Shown here piece by piece: positions 9,002 through 43,437 of a stretch of DNA of 64,000 nt; within the stretch, counting starts at the first letter, position 1; every line of letters begins with the position of its first letter. The stretch comes from Candidatus Thiodiazotropha endoloripes (lineage in GTDB: Bacteria > Pseudomonadota > Gammaproteobacteria > Chromatiales > Chromatiaceae): positions 1,674,001 to 1,738,000 of the forward strand of contig NZ_LVJW01000003.1 of assembly GCF_001708965.1 (NCBI RefSeq), given 5' to 3'. The notes below the pieces were generated by a model. That model made no database searches. It saw only the letters and a program-made list of their open reading frames with translations, and had not been told where the DNA came from. A program made the position numbers and the translations under genes.

Positions 9002-9925
9002 ATGGAACTGAGACAATTAACTTCGCTGGTTGCCCTCGAAGAGTCGGGGTTTAACGTCACTCTGGCGGCCAAACACCTGTTCCTGGTGCAGTCGGCGGTC
9101 TCTCAACATCTCGCACAGCTGGAGCAGGAGTTGGGTACCCAGCTGTTCATGCGCAAAGGCAAACGCTTGATTGGGCTCACTGCAGCAGGCGAGGAGGTTC
9201 TCAATTATGCTCGCCAGGCGCTAGCCATTCGTGAAAATATTCTGGATGTCGGACGGGAGCATGTGGAAGAGGGTAGTGGTTTGTTGCGCATCGGTACCAC
9301 CCATACTCAGGCCTGTTATGTACTTCCAGCTGTCATCCGTGCATTTCGTAAGCAATTCCCGCAGGTCAATCTGCAGATCAATCAGGGGACACCACAACAG
9401 CTGGTTGAGCTGGTAGTCACTGACCGGGTCGACTTTTCAATCTGTACAGAAGAGCTGGGGGAAAACTCCACCCTCACAGCGATTCCCTGTTATCGCTGGA
9501 ATCGGAGTCTGATCGCCTTGAAGGGTCATCCGGTGTTGTCTGAAAGGCCCCTCTCCCTGGAACGTATCTGTAACTACCCTCTGATTACCTATACATTCGG
9601 TTTTACCGGCGCCAATCATATGCAGACCACCTTTGCCCGGGCAGGACTGCAACCCAACGTAGTGCTGACTGCGGCCGATACCGATGTGATCAAGACATAC
9701 GTTCGTGAGGGTATGGGCATTGGGCTGATCGCCAGCATGGCATATTTGCCGGAACTCGATCCTGATCTGGAGACAAGAGATTTGAGCCATATGCTGCCTT
9801 GGGAGACAACCTGGGTTGCCTATCACAAAGATAAATATCTGCGTCGCTATCAGAAACGATTCATCGATCTGTTGGAGCAGATGATTCTAGATAATGGAGC
9901 GGCAAAACTCGAAGAAGAAAACTGA
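9002..9925 (+). CDS. cysB: LysR-type regulator CysB
   Basis: 307 residues. Winged helix-turn-helix at residues 1-60 (VQSAVSQHLAQLEQELG), then a periplasmic-binding-like effector domain. GTTHTQACYVLP and AADTDVIKTYVREGMGIGLI are diagnostic of the CysB/Cbl branch, which senses acetylserine, sulfate or APS. Divergent from cysJIH, which it most likely controls. CysB rather than Cbl is favoured by its place at the assimilatory operon. Confidence 0.92.
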   Translation: MELRQLTSLVALEESGFNVTLAAKHLFLVQSAVSQHLAQLEQELGTQLFMRKGKRLIGLTAAGEEVLNYARQALAIRENILDVGREHVEEGSGLLRIGTTHTQACYVLPAVIRAFRKQFPQVNLQINQGTPQQLVELVVTDRVDFSICTEELGENSTLTAIPCYRWNRSLIALKGHPVLSERPLSLERICNYPLITYTFGFTGANHMQTTFARAGLQPNVVLTAADTDVIKTYVREGMGIGLIASMAYLPELDPDLETRDLSHMLPWETTWVAYHKDKYLRRYQKRFIDLLEQMILDNGAAKLEEEN

Positions 9926-9993
9926 AATTGTTTGGTGGAAGAAATGCTGAAAGCATCCGCTGTTGATGTGTATCTGAAGTTTGCTGGTGCGGC

Positions 9994-10860
9994 ATGATGG
10001 CATCCTTGGCTGGGAGCTGAGTGGTGCAGATACCAAAGCGACGCCTATCAGTGATCCGGCCAGGTAGATAGTGTCATGCAGATCGCTTACCCTTTTTAGT
10101 GAGCCCTGGAACATCTCAAGACGAACATTGACAAAGTGATTGTAGAGATAGGTTGTGTCAGTGGCTTGAAGCACATGGCAACCATGACCGGAGAGTTGAT
10201 TAATCTGTTTTCTGACCGGATGACGGAGTGTTGATCGTCGTGGGCAGTGCTTCAACCAACCTGATACCATCTATCGACAGTCAGGTATTGCTTGAGGAAG
10301 GATCCCATTACCATCGGCTGGTGGAGTAGACATTGGTCTATACAGGCATCGTACGTATGCCACAGATGGCAATTGCAGCAAAAGTCCCATTTGCAGGGGA
10401 GTGGGTAGATTTAATGGCCCAGTATTACACAACAACAGCAGATATCTATCGCATCTTTGGTGAACTACCGGTGGGCACCGGTTTGTTGGCCACTGCCGAC
10501 AATGGTGAAAAGAGTATCGATGGTTTTGAATGGCCTCTGGTAAGGATGCTGGAACTGGATACCGATGCCAACAATAGGGACAGATGGAAGCGATTTATTG
10601 AGTATCTTGCTGAACAGCAGCTACGCCTGATTCAATATCGCTGTGAACGGCTGCTTGCTAAGCCCTTACTCTCCAGCAATGCGCCCCTGGTTAGAGCGGG
10701 TTTAAGGCGATTTCTTACCAAGCGGATCGGTCGTCGATTGAGCCACCCTCACGTAGGTATCGAGTCTCTGTTCGCCAGTGGTGAAAGCATTGCCTTCAAG
10801 GAAGCTGAGTGCGCCCCAGCAGTAGCGATGGCCAGCCTCGCTCTGGAGGGATCGAAATGA
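9994..10860 (+). pseudogene. Decayed hydantoinase/oxoprolinase-type, H4MPT-linked C1 pathway gene
   Basis: Coding-like pieces run in three frames. 9999-10067 reads GILGWELSGADTKA (the family's N-terminal IGWDxGGAHxKA motif) then a TAG. 10130-10234 reads DKVIVEIGCVSGLKHMATM then TGELINLFSDR, then a TGA. A frame open from about 10220 reads VLIVVGSASTNLIPSID, meets TAG at 10327-10329, and continues TLVYTGIVRMP, PFAGEWVDLMAQYYTTTADI, TADNGEKS to 10860. These match, from memory, the ASKHA-like protein found with tetrahydromethanopterin C1-transfer genes (TIGR03123 type). Two frameshifts and at least one nonsense codon indicate a pseudogene. The last 175 codons form an open frame but lack the N-terminus. 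Its end overlaps pabB as ATGA. Confidence 0.68.
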
Positions 10861-12248
10861 ACTTTGAGGTAATCACCTTTCCCTATCAGCAGAATAGCGC
10901 GGCGTTATTCGAAGCCATCGCTCATCTGCCCTGGGCCGCTTTTCTCGATAGCTGTCATCCCTACACAGAACAGGGGCGTTACGACATACTCTCAGCCGAC
11001 CCCCAGACTGTGCTGATCACCCGGGGCGAACACACCCGGATTGTACCGAGCGGTGGTTCGATGCGCCTCTCGACAGAGGATCCCTTTCAGTTGCTGAGCG
11101 ATTCACTGGGGCCAATCCAGCAGAGTGTGGAGGATCTGCCTTTTTGCGGTGGAGCGATCGGCTACTTCGGTTATGACCTGGCACGCCGTCTGGAAAGCCT
11201 GCCGTCGTTGGCAGAAGATGTGGAACAGCTACCGCAAATGGCGGTTGGTATCTATGACTGGTCACTGGTTGTGGATCACCAGCAACAGTGCAGCTGGCTG
11301 GTTGGACAAAACCCCGCCAGACTGGAAAGGTTTCGGCGTATGTTGCTCAGTGTGGCAGAAAATAGCTCAAAACCGGCAAATCTCTCCCCATACCGGGTAG
11401 TGGGCAGTATTTGCTCTAATATGAACCGGGAAGAATATCTGGCATCCCTGGCCAGAATCAAAAAATACATTCAGGATGGTGACTGCTATCAGGTTAATTT
11501 CGCCCAGCGCTTTTCAGTTACCGCAAAGGGCGATACCTGGCAGGCATACAAAGGACTCAGGCAGCTCAATGCCGCCCCCTTTGCGGCCTATCTGAGTACC
11601 CCGGATTGCCAGATAATGAGTTCATCTCCGGAGCGTTTTCTGGAACTTCGCAACGGCCTGGTTGAGACCAAACCGATCAAGGGAACAGCTCCGAGGGGAG
11701 AGGATTCCATCGAGGATATGATGCTGGCTGAGATGTTGAAAAACAGCAGCAAGGATCAGGCAGAGAATCTGATGATCGTCGATCTGTTGCGCAACGACCT
11801 GGGCAAGGTCTGTGCCACCGGCACTGTTACCGTACCGGAGCTGTTCAAATTGGAGAGCTTCGCCCGGGTACACCATCTTGTGAGCAAGGTGTGTGGTGAG
11901 CTGGCAGCCGGTGAAAATGCCCTCTCTTTACTGCGTGCCTGCTTTCCCGGTGGCTCGATAACCGGTGCGCCAAAGTTGCGTGCCATGGAGATTATCGAAG
12001 AGCTGGAACCCCACAGACGGGGCATCTACTGCGGCTCCATTGGTTATGTCAGTTTTGATGGGGATATGGATACCAATATTGCCATCAGGACCATGGTTCA
12101 TGCCCAGGGTATTACCAGACTCTGGGCGGGCGGCGGGATAGTCGCTGACTCCGATCCCGAAGCGGAGTATCGGGAGACCTATCATAAAGCATCCGCTCTG
12201 TTCGATCTGCTACAGCGTATGGAACAGATGAATTCCGAATGTGGGTAG
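10857..12248 (+). CDS. pabB: Aminodeoxychorismate synthase component I PabB
   Basis: 463 residues from the ATG at 10857, which has a GGAGGGATCG ribosome site; an upstream in-frame start at 10809 is less likely. It makes 4-amino-4-deoxychorismate from chorismate with glutamine-derived ammonia for folate. The chorismate-binding domain has SSSPERFLEL, KPIKGTAPRG (the PIKGT lysine separates PabB from TrpE), GSITGAPKLRAMEIIEELE and IAIRTM. Flanked on both sides by decayed genes of what appears to be a C1 cofactor cluster; pabB alone is intact, as expected since folate synthesis needs it. Confidence 0.93.
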   Translation: MNFEVITFPYQQNSAALFEAIAHLPWAAFLDSCHPYTEQGRYDILSADPQTVLITRGEHTRIVPSGGSMRLSTEDPFQLLSDSLGPIQQSVEDLPFCGGAIGYFGYDLARRLESLPSLAEDVEQLPQMAVGIYDWSLVVDHQQQCSWLVGQNPARLERFRRMLLSVAENSSKPANLSPYRVVGSICSNMNREEYLASLARIKKYIQDGDCYQVNFAQRFSVTAKGDTWQAYKGLRQLNAAPFAAYLSTPDCQIMSSSPERFLELRNGLVETKPIKGTAPRGEDSIEDMMLAEMLKNSSKDQAENLMIVDLLRNDLGKVCATGTVTVPELFKLESFARVHHLVSKVCGELAAGENALSLLRACFPGGSITGAPKLRAMEIIEELEPHRRGIYCGSIGYVSFDGDMDTNIAIRTMVHAQGITRLWAGGGIVADSDPEAEYRETYHKASALFDLLQRMEQMNSECG

Positions 12249-12457
12249 TCAAGTTCGTAGGCATTCTGTTCGATGCGGACAATCTGGGAAACTGGTTGAC
12301 ACTTTTGGATTTTTTGGTGGTTGCAAATGAGTATCCTGAGCTGCATATGATCGTGTATAGCTGGTTGGAAGAGCAGGCTTGCAATGGCCGCCCCTGTAAA
12401 GTGTTGGGCTGGTATCCCGTTTCAGGATGTGCGTTCCACGCGCTGTTCAGTATATGA
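12239..12457 (+). pseudogene. Remnant of an amino-acid-kinase family gene
   Basis: A 72-codon frame starts MWVVKFVGILFDADNLGNWL. It closely resembles the MWVVKLGGSLxxSxxLxxWL start of the small amino-acid kinases (MfnE-like) that accompany H4MPT-linked C1 genes, but the glycine loop is damaged (GGS to VGI) and similarity fades after about 25 residues. The family is about 200 residues. A shifted frame continues to 12507 (SVYDWDLHGM), which may hold a further piece. It overlaps the pabB end by 10 bases, as in an operon. Relic identity is moderately supported by context. Confidence 0.5.
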
Positions 12458-12509
12458 CTGGGATCTGCATGGGATGATCGTTAAATAGGCCCAGATTCAG
12501 GGAAGTTTT

Positions 12510-14606
12510 TTACCAATTCATCGTTTTGCTGGCAGTGGCTTGGCTACCGAAATCATAACGAAGTGTCAAACCCGCATAGATATTCCTGTCTGGCGCCGGT
12601 TCGAAGTATCGTCCACCGAATGTGTTGATGCGCACATTACCGTTGTATTGTTTATCAAACAGGTTGTTCACGCCGATGAACGGGGAGAGTTCCCATGGAC
12701 CGAAGAAGCGGCTGTAACCCACTCTAAGATCAGCCAGGGCATAGCCATCATTGGTGACCGTGTTGGCATTGTCTGCATAGATCTCATCCACATAGAGGGC
12801 AGTCAATTGGCTGTAAATACCATTCGGGTGGGTATAGGAGAAATCAGCACTGAACAGATTTTCCGGCACGCCAGGTATTACATTGCCACTGAAATCATTG
12901 CCGTTGTCATCGATGAATTTCTCAAATTCAAAGTTTGAATAGGTGTAGGCGAGGGTGGTGATCAGAGTGTTAAAAAGTTCAAAGACAACTTGGGCCTCGA
13001 GCCCATTGCGACTGGATTCGCCTGCATTTTCATAGTAGGTGATATCATCGATTTCGAACGGGACCAGTTCGTCTGTGACATCCATGGCGAAGAGTGCCAG
13101 ATCATATCTGATCCTGTCATCCAATGCCCCTTTAACCCCGATTTCATAGCCAGTGGCAACCTGCGGTTCCAGGTCCTGATTGAAACCGGCACCGTCAGGA
13201 TCTCGCAGCTCCACTGCGGCGGGAGACTCAAATGAGCGGGATAGGTTGGCGTATAGGTTGATATCCTCTCTTGGGGTGTAACGAAATCCCAGAGTTGGGC
13301 TGAACTTGCTGAAGCTGCGGTCACCGGAATCGTCTCCATTGCTGAGAAAATCATCCTCCAGTTCGAAGTCGAGATGGTCGTAGCGGCCACCAAGTGTCAG
13401 TTCCATGGTCTCATTGATGCTGTATTCATTTTGCAGATAGAGTCCGATATTGTCGACCTGCTCATCCTGATCCTGGATTTTGGTACCAAGATTCTCACCG
13501 GCAAGCAGGTAGCGTTTTCTGTCGTCCTCCTGCCTGTCCATATCGATACCGATGGTGAATCGATTGCCATGAGTGTTAATCGGGGCCTTGTGGGTGTACT
13601 GGACACCACCGCCATAGGCGAAACGATCCAGTACGATACCGTGGCCTGTTGCTCCGATTGGCAGACGATTGGCGAGGTCACGCCACACATAGTAGTTGCG
13701 TACTCTGAGTTCACCTTGTTCGCCGAGTGGGTTTTCAAAGACGAAGCCTACCCTTGTCTGTTCCAGTTCCTCTCCTGAATCGAGGGATTTGTTCCTTGTC
13801 CAGGCTGCCGTTGGATCATCCTCGACCAGTTGTTCAGTTAAACCACCCGGGTCATCCGCTTGTGGAGAATCTGTGTAGTTGATTACTGTATTAAAGCGAC
13901 CGCCTCCATCCAGATCGAAGCTGAACTTGCTGTTTAACGCACTCTGTTCTGTTGCGCTTTGATCCCGATAGCCGTCATAACTCATGTCAGACAGATTAAC
14001 CAGATAATCAAAAGATTCAGTTTGCCCGCCAAACTTGATCTGGTGCTTTTGAAAACCATCTTCACCAAAGGTCGGGCGTACAGAGATAAACGGAATTTCT
14101 GGGGGCTCTTCCGAACCGATTAAAATAGCCCCTCCGGATGCATTTCCATAGAGCGCAGAGACCGGTCCGCGAATAACCTGCATGTTGCCGATTGAACCGA
14201 TATCGATACTGTCAACATTAGCCTGTCCGTCCGGCAGTGTTTCCGGAATGCCGTCAACAATTATCTTGATACCCCGGATACCAAATGCGGAACGGGCTCC
14301 GAACCCACGGATCGAAATCCGAAGGTCTTGTGCAAAGTTATAACGGTTCTGCATGAAAATACCCGGGATATGAATCAACGACTCATCCAGGCCCAGTTGC
14401 GGTTCTGAAAACTGGATTGTCTGCTGCTGCACGATACCGACAGCAGCAGGTACTTTTTCTAGAGGTTTCTCCACCCGGGTTGCGGTAACAGAAATCTCAT
14501 TGAGGATTGATGTCTGCGCTGTTACCTCTGCCGATGAATATGTACTGAGTTGTACCATAACTGTTGCAGTAACAAGAGAGATGAGTTGACGGGGTAGCGG
14601 TAACAT
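12510..14606 (-). CDS. TonB-dependent outer-membrane receptor (FecA/siderophore-like)
   Basis: 698 residues with an N-terminal signal peptide (cleavage near SSAEV). A TonB box-like segment (NEISVTATRVEKP) leads into a plug domain with IRGFGARSAFGIRGIKIIVDGIPETLPDGQ and VIRGPVSALYGNASGGAI. A 22-strand barrel follows, with family motifs YEIGVKGAL, GYALADLRVGY and NNLFDKQYNG, ending in an aromatic (Trp). It imports a ligand that cannot be named from sequence; FecA-type ferric chelate uptake is the best guess. Nothing resembling a partner transporter or sigma/anti-sigma pair is adjacent. Confidence 0.88.
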   Translation of the reverse strand: MLPLPRQLISLVTATVMVQLSTYSSAEVTAQTSILNEISVTATRVEKPLEKVPAAVGIVQQQTIQFSEPQLGLDESLIHIPGIFMQNRYNFAQDLRISIRGFGARSAFGIRGIKIIVDGIPETLPDGQANVDSIDIGSIGNMQVIRGPVSALYGNASGGAILIGSEEPPEIPFISVRPTFGEDGFQKHQIKFGGQTESFDYLVNLSDMSYDGYRDQSATEQSALNSKFSFDLDGGGRFNTVINYTDSPQADDPGGLTEQLVEDDPTAAWTRNKSLDSGEELEQTRVGFVFENPLGEQGELRVRNYYVWRDLANRLPIGATGHGIVLDRFAYGGGVQYTHKAPINTHGNRFTIGIDMDRQEDDRKRYLLAGENLGTKIQDQDEQVDNIGLYLQNEYSINETMELTLGGRYDHLDFELEDDFLSNGDDSGDRSFSKFSPTLGFRYTPREDINLYANLSRSFESPAAVELRDPDGAGFNQDLEPQVATGYEIGVKGALDDRIRYDLALFAMDVTDELVPFEIDDITYYENAGESSRNGLEAQVVFELFNTLITTLAYTYSNFEFEKFIDDNGNDFSGNVIPGVPENLFSADFSYTHPNGIYSQLTALYVDEIYADNANTVTNDGYALADLRVGYSRFFGPWELSPFIGVNNLFDKQYNGNVRINTFGGRYFEPAPDRNIYAGLTLRYDFGSQATASKTMNW

Positions 14607-14921
14607 ACTTCACTCCGGATGAGAAAACTGCATATCCTCAATAAGAGACAGTAGATTGGATTGGGTTGATCGCCATGTAAGACCGTAATCAGGCAGCACC
14701 CAAGCCTGTTCCTGGCCATTTTTTGTCTTTTTTCACCTCGTATGACATTCAACTGAATTAAAGACCAGTTAACTTTTATACTAAGTTATTAATAGTAAAA
14801 AGATTGTTGGACATTATTTCATCATGGGCCCATTTCTGAATAATATACTATTTTCCCTGAACCAATCTGGTTTCAATCTGAGCCATAAGATCATATACAA
14901 TACACCAAAAGGGAATCCAAA

Positions 14922-14969
14922 ATGGACATCGCTATGATTAAAGCTAAAGGACCGTTCAGAGACGAATGA
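14922..14969 (+). CDS. Possible 15-residue leader peptide before the diguanylate cyclase
   Basis: ATG 14922 to TGA 14967-14969 encodes MDIAMIKAKGPFRDE. A GGGAATCC ribosome-site-like stretch lies 6-12 bases upstream, better than any before the next gene, and the stop overlaps the ATG of the cyclase as ATGA. This suggests translational coupling. It could also be a chance frame. The rest of the 14607-14921 gap is A+T rich with no gene seen. Confidence 0.4.
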   Translation: MDIAMIKAKGPFRDE

Positions 14970-16297
14970 TCAATAAAATCATGTTGGTCGATGGTTCTAA
15001 CGCGTCGCGGGAGGTGCTCATCCGACGCTTACAGGTTGCTATGCCTGAAATTCATATCTCAAGCTGCGCAACGGCAAACGAGACTCTGGCCCGCATCGCA
15101 GAGGAGCGCTTTTCACTGATCACCACCGCACTGCTGCTACCTGATATGGATGGGCTGGATCTGTGTCGGAAAATACGCAGCAGTAAAAGACATCGCTACA
15201 CCCCCGTGATTGTGGTCTCATCCGATGCTGATCAACGCTTGCTGCATGAAGGTTACAATGCCGGTGTCACCGACTATTTTGATAAAGCCCATGGCTATAT
15301 GGCATTTGGTCAATTCATCAAATCGTTTCTGGCACGCAACGCTGACCTCTTTGGCCGTATCCTCTATCTGGAAGATAGTAAAACAGCCATTGCCTCAACA
15401 CGACAGATGCTGGAAGCACATGGTATGGAAGTGGTTCATGCCAGCTCTGTGGAAGAGGCGTTGAATCTGCTGGAAAAATCCCGTCAAGCTAATGAAAGGA
15501 GTTTTGATCTGGTCATTACAGATTTTCACTTGCAGGGTCAAATGACCGGTGGGGATCTGCTCTACTCAATCCGAGTCCGGCAACACTACTCACAACAGGA
15601 ACTACCCGTGTTGGTGACCACCGGCAATGAAGATATTAAGACCCAGGTGGCGGTGTTTAATGCAGGTGCCAATGATTTCGTGAATAAGCCTCTGGTGGAA
15701 GAGGTGGTAATGGCCCGGGTGCGTGCCTTGTTATTGGTTAAATTTCAATATGACACCTTACGCCGGCAGGCAGCAAATCTTGAACAAATGGCCACGACAG
15801 ATGCCCTGACCTCAACTCATAATCGGCTCTATCTGGTAGAAGCAGGTGAAACATTTCTCACAGAGCGGAATGATGGATGGGTGATTATCATCGATCTTGA
15901 TCATTTCAAAATGATTAATGACACGGAAGGACACCTGGTTGGCGATCAGGTATTGATTGCGATGGGAAAGTTGTTGAATCAATTATTTCAGGATGGATTG
16001 CCGGTCCGCTTCGGCGGAGAGGAATTTGTTGTTCTGGCTCATGGTGAAGCGATACCCTCTCGCTGTGAAGCGATGCGCAAAGCGGTTGAGGCACTCAAGC
16101 CAGGTGGTGTTGAGGTTACTGTGAGTATTGGTCTGGTTGCAGTCGAAGCCCAACCTGGAAAAGACCTGAACAGCTTACTCGGTCTGGCTGACAATGCCCT
16201 CTATGCAGCCAAGGATGCGGGTAGAAACAGAGTTTTCATCTACGACGCGAATGCCAATGCTGTACCTTACACTTCTGTCAAAGAAACCACGGATTGA
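14966..16297 (+). CDS. Response regulator with two receiver domains and GGDEF diguanylate cyclase (PleD-like)
   Basis: 443 residues. REC1 about 4-120, REC2 about 131-260, GGDEF about 280-435. Output is c-di-GMP synthesis: the active-site motif is RFGGEEF and the metal/substrate site IIIDLDHFKMINDTEGH. REC2 keeps the phospho-acceptor Asp (LVITDFHLQG) and a Lys (FVNKPL). REC1 lacks it (LITTALLLPDMDG has Thr where Asp is expected) and may be a dimerisation adaptor, as in PleD. No RxxD inhibitory site precedes GGEEF (the region is FQDGLPV). No cognate histidine kinase is adjacent. Confidence 0.9.
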   Translation: MINKIMLVDGSNASREVLIRRLQVAMPEIHISSCATANETLARIAEERFSLITTALLLPDMDGLDLCRKIRSSKRHRYTPVIVVSSDADQRLLHEGYNAGVTDYFDKAHGYMAFGQFIKSFLARNADLFGRILYLEDSKTAIASTRQMLEAHGMEVVHASSVEEALNLLEKSRQANERSFDLVITDFHLQGQMTGGDLLYSIRVRQHYSQQELPVLVTTGNEDIKTQVAVFNAGANDFVNKPLVEEVVMARVRALLLVKFQYDTLRRQAANLEQMATTDALTSTHNRLYLVEAGETFLTERNDGWVIIIDLDHFKMINDTEGHLVGDQVLIAMGKLLNQLFQDGLPVRFGGEEFVVLAHGEAIPSRCEAMRKAVEALKPGGVEVTVSIGLVAVEAQPGKDLNSLLGLADNALYAAKDAGRNRVFIYDANANAVPYTSVKETTD

Positions 16298-16391
16298 ACT
16301 TGGACTCGGTTTCCTAACCTGAGTCTAACTTGATACATCGGATCGATTGGAAATCTATTGAAAAGAGCACCCGGTCTGATACATACACCTT

Positions 16392-16403
16392 GTACATATG
16401 TAC
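16392..16403. promoter_or_regulatory. Perfect 12-bp palindrome upstream of ndh
   Basis: GTACATATGTAC, 210 bases before the NDH-2 start, in a 316-base gap (16298-16613) with no gene. It could be an operator for ndh; a palindrome this short can occur by chance in A+T-rich DNA. Confidence 0.3.
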
Positions 16404-16613
16404 GGTAATGTGACAGCTAAGTTATTGTTGGACTTAACGAAATTGGCGCACTATCCTAGCTCTATCATCACAGATGGATGATGATCAGCAGATCGTTTTG
16501 AGATGTCAGAAACCTCAGCTAATACGAGTCTGAATTGAAATCGGAAATGGAATTTGTCTGCTTCCTGACTCTCAGTCAATCTGTTTAAGCACATAGTCAA
16601 CTTGGAGCCACTG

Positions 16614-17924
16614 ATGTCGGAATCACCGAAAATCGTTGTTGTTGGCGGCGGCGCTGCCGGTCTCGAGCTCGCAACCCATCTTGGCAGACGTTTAGGCAAG
16701 CATGACAAGGCACAGGTAACCCTGATCGATGCCACCCGAACCCATGTATGGAAACCGTTACTCCATCAAGTGGCTGCCGGTACATTCGATCCGGCACAAC
16801 ATGCACTTGGTTATCTGGCACATGCCCGTTGGAACCACTATCGATTCCGTCTTGGCATCATGCAGGATCTGGATCGGGTAAAGCGTGAGATTGTTCTGGC
16901 GCCACTGCACAACGAGCAGGGAGAGGAGCTGATTCCAAGTCGCAATTTCTCCTATGACTACCTGGTTTTTGCCGTTGGCAGTGTGAGTAACGATTTTGGT
17001 ATTCCCGGTGTTCAGGAGCACTGCTTGATGCTAGATACAAAATCTCAAGCAAGCCATTTTCAACAGCAGTTACTGGAAGCTCTGATCAAGGCCAATACCC
17101 AAAAAGAAGCGTTAAAGGATGGCCAGTTGGATGTGGCCATTGTGGGAGCCGGTGCGACCGGTGTTGAACTGGCAGCTCAGCTCCATCAGGTGACCCGGCA
17201 GATCGCCCAATACGGATTTGAGACCATTCAGCCGGACCGCCATATCCATCTGCATATCCTGGATGCCGGGCCAAGAATACTGCCGGCTCTACCGGAAAAG
17301 CTCTCAAGTCAGGTACAACAAGAGCTCGAGAGTCTGGGTATTCAGGTGCATGTCTCGCAAATGGTCACCAAAGTCACCGCGGATGCGGTTCACACCGACT
17401 CCGGTCTGGTGATTCCCGCCGCGATCAAGGTATGGGCTGCAGGTATCAAAGGCCCAGATTTTCTTGCTCAGCTCGATCTCACCGTCAACCATATCAATCA
17501 GCTTAAGGTTCACGGTGATCTGACCCTTGAAGATGATGAGCGTATCTATGCGATCGGAGACTGTGCCGCCTGCGTAATGAATGAGCAGGGGGATCTGGTA
17601 CCACCCAGGGCCCAGGCTGCGCATCAACAGGCCTCATTTGTCGCCAAAGCGCTGGTCAAAAGGATAAAGGGACAGAGCTTTGACAAGCGATACATCTACC
17701 ATGACTACGGCTCACTGGTAACGCTGGGTCGATACAGCACCGTCGGCAGTCTGATGGGAGCCATTACCGGCAGTGTACGGGTAAGTGGCTGGATCGCCAG
17801 ATGGGTCTATTTGTCTTTGTACAAAATGCATCAGTTGACCTTGTTCGGCTGGTGGAGAACCGGATTGACCACACTGGCCAGGATGCTTAGACGCAGTATC
17901 GATCCTGCAATAAAACTGCATTAA
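16614..17924 (+). CDS. ndh: Type II NADH dehydrogenase (NDH-2), FAD-dependent
   Basis: 436 residues from ATG 16614 (MSESPKIVVVGGG), which has GGAG seven bases upstream; an in-frame TTG at 16602 is less likely. It passes electrons from NADH to quinone at the membrane surface without pumping protons. The FAD Rossmann motif is IVVVGGGAAGLELATHLGRR, the NADH motif VAIVGAGATGVELAAQL, and YAIGDCAAC is the second FAD-contact motif. The C-terminal amphipathic stretch (WIARWVYLSLYKMHQLTLFG) fits membrane attachment. Monocistronic by spacing. Confidence 0.94.
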   Translation: MSESPKIVVVGGGAAGLELATHLGRRLGKHDKAQVTLIDATRTHVWKPLLHQVAAGTFDPAQHALGYLAHARWNHYRFRLGIMQDLDRVKREIVLAPLHNEQGEELIPSRNFSYDYLVFAVGSVSNDFGIPGVQEHCLMLDTKSQASHFQQQLLEALIKANTQKEALKDGQLDVAIVGAGATGVELAAQLHQVTRQIAQYGFETIQPDRHIHLHILDAGPRILPALPEKLSSQVQQELESLGIQVHVSQMVTKVTADAVHTDSGLVIPAAIKVWAAGIKGPDFLAQLDLTVNHINQLKVHGDLTLEDDERIYAIGDCAACVMNEQGDLVPPRAQAAHQQASFVAKALVKRIKGQSFDKRYIYHDYGSLVTLGRYSTVGSLMGAITGSVRVSGWIARWVYLSLYKMHQLTLFGWWRTGLTTLARMLRRSIDPAIKLH

Positions 17925-26348: not shown

Positions 26349-27614
26349 ATGTGGAAATATCTTTTGATCGGCTCATTGGCGCTAATCATAAGCTGCAGTG
26401 ATCAGCAGTCTGACCTGACTGTACTCATGGTCTGGGCACATGCAGGTCAGGCAGTTGAAAGAAAGGTGCTTGAACAACAAGTAAAACGTTTTAATAGCTT
26501 ACAGACAGAGATACAAGTCCAGCTTACATTTATCCCTGAGCAGTCCTACAATGCTCAGGTGCAAGCAGCTGCAGTAGCTGGCGAACTGCCTGATATGCTT
26601 GAATTTGACGGTCCCTTTCTCTACAACTATGTCTGGCAAGGTCACTTGGAACCTTTGGATAAGTTGCTAAGCGCGAAGTTGCAGGAAGAACTTCTGCCGT
26701 CAATTCAAAAGCAGGGCCATTATCTTGGCAAATTTTACGCTGTTGGCACTTTTGATTCCGGACTAGGACTATATGCAAGGCGCAGTGCACTCAAGGATAC
26801 CGGTGTGCAAATTCCATCCGGGCCTGATAATGCCTGGACAGACGACGAATTTGCTACTGTGCTGGCAGCACTCGCCTCTCGTGATCCTGACGGTAGGGTA
26901 TTGGACCTGAAGCTCAACTATTCAGGCGAATGGTTTACCTATGCTTTCTCCCCATTGCTGCAATCAGCCGGGGGAGATCTTATCGATCGCAACGACTATC
27001 AATCTGCAGAGGGGATTCTGAATAGTCCTCAATCGGTAAGGGCCATGAAAGCTCTGCAGAACTGGTTTACCCGTGGCTACATAGATAGCAATGTGGATGA
27101 TGCTGCCTTTGTCAGCGGCCGTGTTGCACTTTCGTGGGCCGGACACTGGGAATACTCTCGCTATGCAGAGGCGCTGGGTAGCGATCTTGCCCTTTTACCG
27201 CTGCCTGACCTTGGCAAGGGTTCGCGCACAGGCCAGGGTTCTTGGGTATGGGGTATCACAAAGCACAGCAAAAACCCTCAGGCAGTCGTACGATTGCTCG
27301 AGTTTCTGCTCCAGCCAAACGAGGTCCTCGTGATGGCTGCAGCCAATGGGGCAGTACCGGCCACTCGCACGGCCATCGCTCGCTCGCCATTGTATGGCGA
27401 CAAAGGGCCGCTGCAACTGTTTGCCCGGCAGTTGCAAGGGGGATTCTCCGTACCACGTCCACAAACGCCTGCTTATCCAGTCATTACATCGGCTTTTCAG
27501 CAGGCTTTCATCGATATACGAAACGGTGGTGACATACAAAACGCGATGGATAAGGCGGCGACTGAGATCGATCAGGACATTCGTGATAACAAAGGTTATC
27601 CTCAGGTGGATTGA
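26349..27614 (+). CDS. Sugar-type ABC transporter substrate-binding lipoprotein
   Basis: 421 residues of solute-binding family 1 (MalE/UgpB-like). Lipobox LIISC with Cys16 as the lipidated residue. Core motifs: LPDMLEFDGPFLYNYVWQG, NYSGEWFTYAFSPLLQSAGG and FVSGRVALSWAGHW. GAGG four bases before ATG. First of a four-gene importer operon with 21, -4 and 15 base junctions. The substrate is likely a sugar or polyol; no catabolic gene is adjacent to say which. Confidence 0.92.
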   Translation: MWKYLLIGSLALIISCSDQQSDLTVLMVWAHAGQAVERKVLEQQVKRFNSLQTEIQVQLTFIPEQSYNAQVQAAAVAGELPDMLEFDGPFLYNYVWQGHLEPLDKLLSAKLQEELLPSIQKQGHYLGKFYAVGTFDSGLGLYARRSALKDTGVQIPSGPDNAWTDDEFATVLAALASRDPDGRVLDLKLNYSGEWFTYAFSPLLQSAGGDLIDRNDYQSAEGILNSPQSVRAMKALQNWFTRGYIDSNVDDAAFVSGRVALSWAGHWEYSRYAEALGSDLALLPLPDLGKGSRTGQGSWVWGITKHSKNPQAVVRLLEFLLQPNEVLVMAAANGAVPATRTAIARSPLYGDKGPLQLFARQLQGGFSVPRPQTPAYPVITSAFQQAFIDIRNGGDIQNAMDKAATEIDQDIRDNKGYPQVD

Positions 27615-27635
27615 ACAGAGGTCGCCAACCAGATC

Positions 27636-28544
27636 GTGCCGATTATGAGACAACCGTTATTGGATAGTCGGAACTTTATCGCCGCCTTTATGAGTGCCCC
27701 GGCACTAGTAGGGTTGTTGCTGTTTGTTGTGGTGCCATTTCTGTTCGCTGTGGCGCTCAGCTTTACCAACCTCCGACTCGGTTCGCCGCTGCCCCTCGAA
27801 TGGATGGGGTTCGAGCAGTATCGCCGTATCTTTTCCGACCCTTCTTTCGTTCGCGCCCTGCTGAATAATCTGGTGTTCGTGGTCGTGGTGGTGCCGTTGC
27901 AGACAGTCTTGGCGCTTGTTCTGGCATTACTGCTCAATCGACGGCTCTACGGCATCACATGGTTCCGTACTTTGTTCTTCATGCCCGTAGTGTTCCCACT
28001 TTCATTAGTAGCCGTTGTCTGGGTATTGATTTTCGCTCCGGGACCCAATGGAATGATGAACGCTTTTCTGGATCTGGTCAGCTTAGGTAACTGGACCCCA
28101 CGTGATTTCCTTCACGATCCGTACTTTGCGTTGCCGGCGATCATGTTGACCTCGATCTGGCAGGGTACCGGCTTCCAGATGGTCATCCTGCTTGCCGGCC
28201 TACAGGCCATTCCAGCGGAACTCTACGAAGCCGCCGCTATTGACGGCGCCGGCCGTCGGCAGCAATTCTGGCATATCACGCTGCCTCAACTTCGCAATAC
28301 GTTGATCTTCGTCGTGCTGGTGACCACCATTCTTGCCTCCCGGTTGTTCGATCAGGTGCAGATCATGACCCAAGGTGGTCCTAATGATGCTTCCACCACT
28401 GTGATGTTCGAAACGGTAGAAGCCGCCTTTGCGCGTCAACAGGTGGCGCGAGGCGCAGCCATGACTGTAATCTTGTTTCTGGTGGTGTTGTTGATCACCA
28501 GGCTGCAACGCCGAGTCGCTCGCCAGGAACGGGAGGTGACATGA
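27636..28544 (+). CDS. Sugar ABC transporter permease 1 (MalF/UgpA-like)
   Basis: 302 residues from GTG 27636, or 299 from the ATG at 27645. Six hydrophobic segments, the first at about residues 18-42 (APALVGLLLFVVVPFLFAVA). The EAA loop reads ELYEAAAIDGAGRRQQFWHI, the coupling helix that docks on the ATPase. Overlaps the second permease by 4 bases. Confidence 0.92.
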   Translation: MPIMRQPLLDSRNFIAAFMSAPALVGLLLFVVVPFLFAVALSFTNLRLGSPLPLEWMGFEQYRRIFSDPSFVRALLNNLVFVVVVVPLQTVLALVLALLLNRRLYGITWFRTLFFMPVVFPLSLVAVVWVLIFAPGPNGMMNAFLDLVSLGNWTPRDFLHDPYFALPAIMLTSIWQGTGFQMVILLAGLQAIPAELYEAAAIDGAGRRQQFWHITLPQLRNTLIFVVLVTTILASRLFDQVQIMTQGGPNDASTTVMFETVEAAFARQQVARGAAMTVILFLVVLLITRLQRRVARQEREVT

Positions 28545-29371
28545 CGCACCGTTCGTTCCTCCCAATGATTTATTTGTGCCTTTTGCTCTTTGGGCTGCTG
28601 TTTATCAGCCCAATTGGTTTCATGCTGGCCGGCAGTTTGAAGCCGGATGCCCGGGTTTTAGTGGAGGCGGGGGATTGGCGTGCCTTCTGGCCTGCCGGGG
28701 TGACGCTGGATAATTATCGGGATGTGTTTGCCCGCGTGGACTTTGCCCGCTACCTGCTTAACTCCCTGTTCATCAACGGGATGATCGTGGGAGCGGGGCT
28801 GCTGGTGAATTCCCTGGCCGGTTACGCCTTTGCCCGTCTACTATGGCGCGGGCGTGACGTACTATTCGGTCTGGTGTTAGCGGTGATGATTATTCCCCTC
28901 GAGGCTATTGCCGTGCCCCTTTTCTACATGGTGTCGCTGGTCGGTTGGCGTGATACATATTTAGTGCAGATTTTACCGTTCATCGCTAATGCATTCTCCG
29001 TCTATCTGTTCTACACCCATTTCATCGGTCTGCCGCGCGAACTAGAGGAGGCGGCGCGTATCGATGGCGCTGGAGTGCTACGCACCTATTTCAGTATTAT
29101 TCTGCCCAATGCTAAGTCGGTTTTCGCAACCGTTGCAATACTGACCTTCCTTTCCCAGTGGGGCGCCTTTCTCTGGCCGCTGATGGTCACCAGCAGCGAG
29201 ACCGTGCGACCATTACCGTTGGCCATTGCCACATTTCATAGCCTGCCGCCACTGCAATGGGGGGATATCTTAGCTTTCGGTGTGATGATGGTGCTACCGA
29301 TTCTGGTGGTGTTCCTGCTGTTTCAGCGTTGGTTCGTTCGCGGTGTTGCCCACACCGGTATAAAAGGGTAA
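28541..29371 (+). CDS. Sugar ABC transporter permease 2 (MalG/UgpE-like)
   Basis: 276 residues with six hydrophobic segments. The EAA loop reads ELEEAARIDGAGVLRTYFSI, followed by LPNAKSVFATVAILTFLSQW, standard for MalG-type subunits. Starts within the last codons of permease 1 (ATGA). Confidence 0.92.
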   Translation: MTHRSFLPMIYLCLLLFGLLFISPIGFMLAGSLKPDARVLVEAGDWRAFWPAGVTLDNYRDVFARVDFARYLLNSLFINGMIVGAGLLVNSLAGYAFARLLWRGRDVLFGLVLAVMIIPLEAIAVPLFYMVSLVGWRDTYLVQILPFIANAFSVYLFYTHFIGLPRELEEAARIDGAGVLRTYFSIILPNAKSVFATVAILTFLSQWGAFLWPLMVTSSETVRPLPLAIATFHSLPPLQWGDILAFGVMMVLPILVVFLLFQRWFVRGVAHTGIKG

Positions 29372-29386
29372 GGGGGGTAGGGCGCT

Positions 29387-30490
29387 ATGGCCGACGTTGA
29401 ATATCGACATGTTGATAAGATCTTTGAAGAGGGCACAAAAGCCCTCGAGAAGTTCAGCCTGGCAGTCGAAGATGGGGAGATGATGGTGCTGGTGGGGCCG
29501 TCGGGTTGTGGTAAGTCGACAGCCTTGCGGCTGTTGGCAGGATTAGAAGCGGTGAGCAATGGTGAGCTGTTGATCGGTGGCAAGCTTGTGAACGAGTGTT
29601 CACCACAACACCGTGATATTGCGATGGTGTTTCAGAATTACGCGCTCTACCCACACATGACCGTACGTCGAAATCTTGAGTTCCCCTTGCGGATGATGAA
29701 GCTGTCCAAGTCCGAAATAGCCCGGCGGGTTGAGGATGCTGCCCACTTGTTGACTCTCACGGATCTACTGGAAAAGCGGCCTCGGCAGTTATCAGGTGGT
29801 CAACGCCAGCGGGTCGCTATGGGGCGGGCCATGGTGCGTCAACCACAAGTGTTCCTCATGGATGAGCCACTGTCCAACCTGGATGCCAAGCTACGTACTC
29901 AGATTCGTGCCGAGATCATCCGTCTGCAAAAAAGCTCGGGAGTCACGACGATCTACGTCACTCACGATCAGGTTGAAGCAATGACATTGGGCGACCGCAT
30001 AGCGGTACTCAACGCGGGAAAACTACAACAGGTAGGACCACCGCAGGAACTCTATGAGCATCCTGCCAACACTTTTGTCGCGGTCTTCCTGGGTAATCCA
30101 GGCATGAACATCTTTGATGCGACGCTGAACAGAGATACTGGGATGCTTCAACTCGCCGCCGGTACTTGGCAGATCCCATTCGAACCGCTGTTGGTACGTA
30201 AACCCTCACTGACAGAGTACATGGAAGGACCAATGTTGGCGGGCCTGCGTCCGGAAATGTTTTCAACATCGACTTCGGGTGCCGAGATGACCGTAGAAAG
30301 TGTCGAGTCGCTAGGACACGAATGTCTGGTATATTTCACGGCATCATGCGTAGTACCTGGTGGGGATCAGAAAACACAGGTCGCTCGCTTGCCTGGCCCA
30401 GCACTTTATGGAACAGGGAATAGCATCCAATTAGGCTTCGACCCGGAACGGCTGCACTTCTTTACAGCAGACGGCGATGCAATAGCTTGA
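29387..30490 (+). CDS. Sugar ABC transporter ATP-binding protein (UgpC/MsmK-like)
   Basis: 367 residues. Walker A GPSGCGKST, signature LSGGQRQRVAMGRAMVR, Walker B VFLMDEPLSNLDA, switch His in YVTHDQVEAMT. A C-terminal TOBE-type regulatory domain follows from about residue 240. Starts 15 bases after permease 2 with AAGGGGGG-type ribosome site. Such ATPases often serve several sugar importers. Confidence 0.93.
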   Translation: MADVEYRHVDKIFEEGTKALEKFSLAVEDGEMMVLVGPSGCGKSTALRLLAGLEAVSNGELLIGGKLVNECSPQHRDIAMVFQNYALYPHMTVRRNLEFPLRMMKLSKSEIARRVEDAAHLLTLTDLLEKRPRQLSGGQRQRVAMGRAMVRQPQVFLMDEPLSNLDAKLRTQIRAEIIRLQKSSGVTTIYVTHDQVEAMTLGDRIAVLNAGKLQQVGPPQELYEHPANTFVAVFLGNPGMNIFDATLNRDTGMLQLAAGTWQIPFEPLLVRKPSLTEYMEGPMLAGLRPEMFSTSTSGAEMTVESVESLGHECLVYFTASCVVPGGDQKTQVARLPGPALYGTGNSIQLGFDPERLHFFTADGDAIA

Positions 30491-30642
30491 TAGCTGTAAT
30501 CGATAAAGACAGAAACCCAGAATAGTGGCCTCCAGACCATCCATTCCGTGTAATAACAGACCAATACCCAATTAAAATTCGCAAATTATGGTGGAGTATA
30601 TTCCTGGTATATCAGATGTTTAGAGCCTCTATGGACGTACTC

Positions 30643-42798: not shown

Positions 42799-43437
42799 TC
42801 AAGCGATTAATTTCTCAACTCCATCAGCCAGAGCATTGCCTAAATTCATGTGTTGTTCCAAGTCCAGGTGAACACCATCAACCCTACTCGTGTTCGTTAC
42901 CATTCCCGCATCGAAAAAAGCACAATCATTCTCACTGGCTACATGTTTAATGGCGGCAGCCAATCCAACCGCCTTTTTCTCAGCTCCTTCAAATTTTGCT
43001 GCAATCTCACCCTTTGGCACTTGTATGGCTGGTGGAGCTATGACCAAAATTTTTGGATTTGGCATGCCAGGTTCTATTGGGGCCTTTCGAATGGCTATGA
43101 TTAAACTGTTAATACCCTGGGCGGCATGCCATGCATTATGGTTATGCATTGATTGGAAATCGTTGGTGCCAAGGAAAAGCATAACCAGAGACAACGGAGA
43201 GTTGATTTCAATTCTCTGCTCCAGACCAACCAAGCCATTTCGGCCTGCTTTGAAGGGATCTTCAAATACGGTTCTTCGTCCATTCAGGCAATCCTCGATG
43301 ATCCGTACTTGATTACCTCGATGTAGCAGTTCAAGTTCTAGAACTCCAGGCCAACGTTGATTGAAACTAAACCGGTCTCTGGTACCAGGAATAATCCCCC
43401 AACTGAGAGAGTCGGCATAGAGCAAGATCTGCTTCAT
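42799..43437 (-). CDS. SGNH/GDSL-family esterase
   Basis: 212 residues from ATG 43437 (MKQILLYADSLSWGIIPG). Block I ADSLSWG, block III GTNDF and block V DGVHLD (catalytic Asp-His) are present. Related to lysophospholipase L1/arylesterase types but has no signal peptide, so it probably acts in the cytoplasm on acyl or acetyl esters. Confidence 0.87.
   Translation of the reverse strand: MKQILLYADSLSWGIIPGTRDRFSFNQRWPGVLELELLHRGNQVRIIEDCLNGRRTVFEDPFKAGRNGLVGLEQRIEINSPLSLVMLFLGTNDFQSMHNHNAWHAAQGINSLIIAIRKAPIEPGMPNPKILVIAPPAIQVPKGEIAAKFEGAEKKAVGLAAAIKHVASENDCAFFDAGMVTNTSRVDGVHLDLEQHMNLGNALADGVEKLIA

Follow-up and report, generated by a model that had tools for sequence, protein, structure and literature searches.

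The DNA around pabB in Candidatus Thiodiazotropha endoloripes was found to be, with a probability that we put at roughly 0.86, the remnant of a methanol-to-CO2 island (H4MPT/methanofuran formaldehyde oxidation, PQQ synthesis, PQQ methanol dehydrogenase and formate dehydrogenase) in which pabB was spared as the only PabB. The island would have been lost by deletion and decay. One join, spanning 47.7 kb in the coordinates of an intact relative (G012), places the end of an ATP-grasp gene beside cysB; the kinase and DUF6647 genes are cut by two smaller deletions, and TIGR03123 carries stops, a frameshift and an internal deletion. The window, by which we mean the whole stretch of 64,000 nt analysed (G000:C3:1674001-1738000), belongs to a 4.46-Mb assembly of 12 contigs with an estimated completeness of 99.95% (G000). 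Comparisons within the genus, a group of lucinid clam symbionts, used 22 Thiodiazotropha genomes, and a wider profile search covered 113 genomes, G000 included. The features at the locus, in window coordinates, were as follows.

9002..9925, + strand: intact CysB-family LysR regulator gene, the left flank next to the deletion junction (NF009327, E 9.8e-99)
9930..9931: large-deletion junction, cysB-downstream DNA (G012 position 90951) joined to the ATP-grasp tail (G012 position 43226)
9931..9994, + strand: last codons of the ATP-grasp gene, which precedes TIGR03123 in intact clusters
9954..10856, + strand: TIGR03123 (MfnF-like) pseudogene with several stops, a 1-nt deletion, an internal deletion of ~175 nt near 10220 and a TAG near 10328
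10333..10860, + strand: residual open frame within the pseudogene, 175 aa, TTG start, judged to be no independent gene
10857..12248, + strand: intact pabB, aminodeoxychorismate synthase component I
12239..12306, + strand: first 22-23 codons of an MfnE-like amino-acid kinase gene, the DNA collinear with G012 and G010 to 12306
12308..12419, + strand: scrap of a DUF6647 gene, 81% to G012 and G010 (E 2e-24)
12510..14606, - strand: intact TonB-dependent receptor gene, the right flank (Pfam PF00593)

A sequence-only reading of this DNA had taken the pieces upstream of pabB for a TIGR03123 protein broken over three frames, and this was borne out: the peptides it quoted fall in those frames, and the TIGR03123 profile matched window positions 10222-10842 at E 5.8e-35 with one internal TAG (hmmscan E 1.7e-35). 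The bit scores of 121.5 and 122.8, over model positions 129-326 and 131-326, lie below the curated cut-off of 244.1, marking the relic of a member and not a working member. With the intact 361-aa protein of G015 as query, pieces at 9954-10055, 10055-10219 and 10222-10854 were recovered in three frames at 50-56% identity, together covering residues 2-90 and 150-360. TIGR03123 adjoins pabB in all 12 intact congeners, and the relic has this same usual place before pabB. Window positions 9931-10220 aligned with G012 as DNA at 78%; the ATP-grasp tail at their start matched as protein over residues 303-334 of 334, reaching only E 0.045 by itself. Among control genomes, TIGR03123 matches at E <=0.001 were observed in 2 of 14, both methanogens. 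A DNA alignment with four relatives placed the 1-nt deletion, the stops, the 175-nt gap and the TAG near 10328 in both G000 and G008, the latter carrying additional lesions of its own. Sequencing or assembly error was rejected, since lesions and junctions are common to the independent assembly of G008.

The residual 175-aa frame might be read as a shortened working protein, which we consider most improbable. G000 and G008 both keep it open across 175 codons, with a well-conserved end, but about the first half of TIGR03123 is missing, the start is TTG, the conserved end carries the likely pabB ribosome-binding site, and pathway-less G007 lost 105 nt from the part of its own TIGR03123 that matches the frame. 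Its dN/dS was 0.26-0.34 in four relic-intact pairs, about double the 0.14 between two intact copies. The G000-G008 comparison alone, with 7 nonsynonymous and 5 synonymous changes in the relic against 8 and 19 in pabB (Fisher p 0.15), was rejected as a proof of decay because the changes are too few. The end of the dead gene, GGAGGGATCGAAATGA, which holds the likely ribosome-binding site and the start of pabB, was identical in G000, G008 and G010 and carried one change in G012 and one in G007; the ribosome-binding stretch differs in G016 and G015. Translation of pabB would thus start from a site kept in the last codons of a dead gene. Transcription might continue into pabB from cysB or begin at a promoter within the relic, which is a guess; at the locus the promoter scan returned 0 sigma-70-like sites versus 2.7 in shuffles, and promoter and terminator scans together returned nothing above chance.

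That pabB is the sole intact gene of the group, as the sequence-only reading had it, agreed with our results: its frame is open, its product passed TIGR00553 (385 bits vs a cut-off of 328.4), and the neighbours are decayed or scraps. The protein scored under the cut-offs of TIGR01824 (394.9 of 408.55) and NF012009 (492.8 of 622), and also under that of the TrpE model TIGR00564 (406.1 of 517.7). The motif PIKGT, which we take to be the active-site motif of the PabB form, was present in 25 of 25 island and purA-linked PabB sequences of the genus, G000 included. Across 11 pairs, pairs with pathway-less genomes included, the dN/dS of pabB was 0.05-0.12, and the gene is under purifying selection. 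TrpE is encoded separately in G000, and the TrpG/PabA-family glutamine amidotransferase gene adjoining trpE (TIGR00566, 276 bits vs 121) encodes a candidate partner of PabB.

Downstream of pabB, the kinase start named in the same reading was confirmed as DNA, collinear to 12306 with two intact relatives, and was weak as protein (65% over residues 1-23, E 3e-5, measured in the sister G008). The DUF6647 scrap was joined after a deletion of about 1.1 kb in G012 coordinates, and its name rests on Pfam PF20352 (E 3.7e-6) in an intact gene, L044:18195-18608. A relic running from 9994 to 12457 had been proposed; the relic is real, but its left edge is the junction at 9930/9931 and the remains end near 12419. 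On the left flank, cysB scored 330.5 bits with NF009327, below the cut-off of 402, and its DNA was 86.8% identical to G012:C156:90951-91962. On the right, a TonB receptor gene occupies the matching side of the island, or of what is left of it, in G012, G010, G007, G016 and G008.

The intact ancestor expected in relatives was found: an H4MPT island with DNA collinear to the window is carried by congeners, and such an island was present in 12 of the 22 genomes. TIGR03123 above its cut-off, MCH and Fae were each observed in these same 12, and FTR in 11 of them, the exception being G011, whose contig ends near the cluster. The order in G015 (L044) is fhcD-fhcA-fhcB (opposite strand), then mptG, mtdB, an ATP-grasp gene, mch, an mptN-like gene, a CitG-like gene and fae, followed by a PTPS-domain gene, a HisA-like gene (opposite strand), a second ATP-grasp gene, TIGR03123, pabB, the MfnE-like kinase and DUF6647. 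FhcD, FhcA and Mch of G015 scored above NCBIfam cut-offs and mptG above TIGR00144 only, while FhcB, MptN, MfnF and MfnE stayed below theirs and carry names given by resemblance. Among intact relatives the closest PabB (93%) is that of G012, whose island is flanked by a TonB receptor gene (31.9-34 kb) and by cysB (91-92 kb). This island also contains pqqC, pqqE, a PQQ dehydrogenase gene, an alcohol-linked ABC transporter, a SoxH-related gene, a NuoEF-like gene and a formate dehydrogenase alpha gene.

Loss of the H4MPT pathway from this lineage, likewise proposed from the sequence, was supported by the content of G000. At E 0.001 no matches to MCH, Fae or FTR (fhcD) were observed, no second TIGR03123 match appeared at E 10 or better, and the relic was the only trace of that family. 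A genome search for an intact C1 set, which would have spoken for duplication, found none in G000; duplication rather than loss was rejected, the genome having no second TIGR03123 and no MCH, FTR or Fae. The PQQ methanol/ethanol dehydrogenase, termed XoxF-type in the literature on the genus, was observed in 14 of the 22 genomes (all 12 island carriers, G007 and G016) and was not found in G000, G008 or the other six pathway-less genomes. Two matches were present in 11 of the 12 carriers, the second copy of G001 having a TAG, and G011 had two pieces. A single PQQ dehydrogenase gene was kept without the H4MPT pathway at G007:C18:13924-15510 and at G016:C14:354543-356129.

A genus tree was built from rpoB, gyrB and trpE nucleotides with a midpoint root; rpoB was missing for G007, G012 and G019 and partial for G005 and G008, trpE was unused for G004, G006, G008, G013 and G014, and gyrB was partial for G008. 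One clade held G000, G008, G007, G016, G010 and G012, with intact and gutted genomes interleaved, its inner order being not firm (one support value was 65). By the tree genes the nearest genome to G000 was G016, at 94.6-96.5%. Elsewhere, G017 and G006, which have no island, were sister to the carriers G001, G002 and G011.

Comparison within this clade showed how the island was cut. Of the 47.7 kb bridged by the large junction, ~10 kb of G012 (72.2-77.9 and 86.7-91.0 kb) has no counterpart in G007 or G016, so the true loss may be nearer 38 kb. Further right, window position 12306 corresponds to G012 40675, positions 12308-12419 to about 39548-39436, and the TonB side resumes at about 33950. G007 keeps the G012 58.1-62.6 kb part (pqqC, pqqE), a differently broken TIGR03123, pabB and a kinase scrap, with gaps near G012 68.3-62.6, 58.1-43.1 and 40.6-34.1 kb. 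G016 keeps pabB and a TIGR03123 scrap of ~100 nt (68-71%; E 1e-11 vs G012 and 6e-13 vs G010), which had no match against reversed sequences used as a control, and its kinase-start scrap is short (83% over 23 nt to the window). G000 and G008 hold DNA that is absent from G007 and G016, and vice versa, and these different remains show that their losses differ. Nearly everything that remains in G016 also remains in G007, and for this reason three fully independent losses were dropped as a claim of what the remains show. Similarity to G012 is lost near the end of the same permease gene in both, and a decayed piece of the gene after the permease is present in G007 and not in G016. The remains therefore establish at least two losses of the pathway in the genus; a third is probable, given the tree. 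No lesion common to G000 and G007 was seen in the alignment; a first inactivating step may nonetheless have been shared by the two.

The relic loci of G000 and G008 are 97.7% identical over 7.76 kb (window 9642-17400 vs G008:C20), and identity falls to 82-93% beyond ~17.5 kb. The two genomes are only 93.2% (rpoB) and 93.6% (gyrB) identical, and the excess at the relic locus suggests that recombination may have carried the gutted locus from one of the two lineages to the other. The same excess could be taken as a sign that the broken C1 fragment arrived by horizontal transfer in a lineage that never had the pathway. We regard such an arrival as very unlikely, and the shared flanks by themselves already disfavour it: the scraps are collinear with the intact G012 island in the same place between TonB and cysB, three different gaps mark deletions, and in G007 and G016 the corresponding place holds separate remains of that island.

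The survival of pabB is probably explained by the prior absence of another pabB, an interpretation drawn from the distribution of genes. Every one of the 22 genomes has at least one PabB. The island type was present in 16 and a second type, 55-57% identical to the window PabB, in 9, with both in 3. In 9 of 9 genomes the second gene lies in a hisZ-purA-pabB-RDD arrangement, while the other 13 of 13 have the purA and RDD neighbours with no match to the second pabB between them. The empty site in G000, hisZ-purA-RDD without pabB, is at L298 (G000:C3:2173500-2182500). Among pathway-less genomes, the island pabB was kept in 4 of 4 without the second pabB (G000, G008, G007, G016) and in 0 of 6 with it (G004, G006, G013, G014, G017, G018), a contrast that does not amount to 10 independent events. 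The island may also never have been present in four of the six. We infer that the cell had by then no aminodeoxychorismate synthase for folate other than the island PabB, and that the gene for it was spared because the purA-linked pabB had already gone.

Alternatively, the island was lost as described and pabB survived by chance or as the better enzyme, which we think unlikely. The independent events are few, with at least two, probably three losses in which pabB was kept (G000/G008, G007, G016) and one or two in which the island pabB was lost or never present. Against chance, the genes on either side of pabB are cut or decayed in G000/G008, G007 and G016 with pabB open, its dN/dS is still about 0.1 in pairs with pathway-less genomes, and each of the 22 genomes retains at least one pabB. 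Returning to the absence of the other pabB as the probable reason, we tentatively propose, at rather less than even odds, that the island PabB replaced the housekeeping PabB, which was then lost from hisZ-purA-RDD. The island could afterwards be discarded only around pabB, at least twice and probably three times, and one gutted locus would have spread by homologous recombination. The purA loci of three outgroup genomes had no match to the second pabB beside purA, so the purA-linked copy could be a gain. With midpoint rooting, the genus tree does not settle the order of the two pabB types in Thiodiazotropha, and a pabB tree, in which island-linked and unlinked copies are mixed across the family, does not settle which type is older.

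Matches to TIGR03123 at E <=0.001 were observed in 24 of the 113 genomes of the wider search. G043, from another genus of the same family, shows pabB flanked by a truncated TIGR03123 and a truncated kinase (L246 6505-9125); G051 has TIGR03123 with pabB (L242 7478-9918); and G055 has mptG, a CitG-like gene and fae before pabB (L245 4334-8445). MCH was not found in any of these three genomes, and their loci look like other stages of the same process, that is, candidate relics. Incomplete assembly could be the cause for G055 or G051; G043 is a single contig. Should the replacement proposed above be true, similar survivors in these three genera would turn pabB into a generally usable fossil marker of H4MPT loss. 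In two other genera of the family, pabB matches had one internal stop (G023:C57:100242-101591 and G049:C53:4747-6075).

The accessible part of a description of the H4MPT/methanofuran C1 cluster of methylotrophic Proteobacteria lists pabB among its genes (PMC4109929). The likeness lies in gene content and pabB linkage, the intact congener island having fhcABD, mptG, mtdB, mch, fae and H4MPT/methanofuran synthesis genes; unlike that cluster, the window has only pabB whole, with one pseudogene and two or three scraps. C1 genes have been described in Ca. Thiodiazotropha endolucinida, taylori, gloverae and boucheti (PMC6712303, PMC8307296, PMC11171427, PMC12172469, PMC9938160), in the same genus and pathway, and there too the genes for methanol dehydrogenase, PQQ, H4MPT and formate dehydrogenase are linked. 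According to PMC8307296, methanol and H4MPT genes occur in T. taylori, T. endolucinida and sp. RUGA, which implies that T. weberae and T. lotti are without them; PMC6712303, PMC12172469, PMC11171427 and PMC9938160 describe C1 genes where present. Methanol dehydrogenase is linked with soxYZ in PMC11237559, and methanol is not mentioned in the available part of PMC13167027. As far as their accessible text goes, the five accounts of C1 genes in the genus give presence, and relics, breakpoints and pabB are not mentioned. Our literature search, limited largely to openly available main texts, turned up no earlier description of this relic, its junctions or the pabB swap.

Patchy C1 genes in the genus are already known, and a relic of a lost pathway is ordinary as a kind; this one stands out for its exact junctions, for a loss that recurred with the same gene spared and for a testable account of why pabB was kept. 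The large single deletion, the repeated loss and the probable reason for pabB survival also go beyond the sequence-only reading. Repeated loss of H4MPT genes in bacteria has been argued (PMC5020050), with the same outcome but from absence, whereas remnants and junctions document loss here. Loss or gain behind the patchy bacterial H4MPT genes is an argued question in that source, and remnants with exact junctions make it countable. The locus would also be a natural experiment in which a borrowed pathway gene replaces a housekeeping gene, becomes indispensable and outlives its pathway. For the clam symbionts, our results indicate repeated loss of methanol use, which in the G000/G008 type went mostly through one large deletion.

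Two further features of the window were observed. A second TonB receptor gene (24-25% identical), which lies between the first receptor and a GGDEF gene in G012, G010, G007 and G016, is absent from G000 (window 14631-14867) and G008, a difference of a few kb. Window positions 26500-30500 were 97-98.6% identical to G016, with surroundings mostly at 85-96%.
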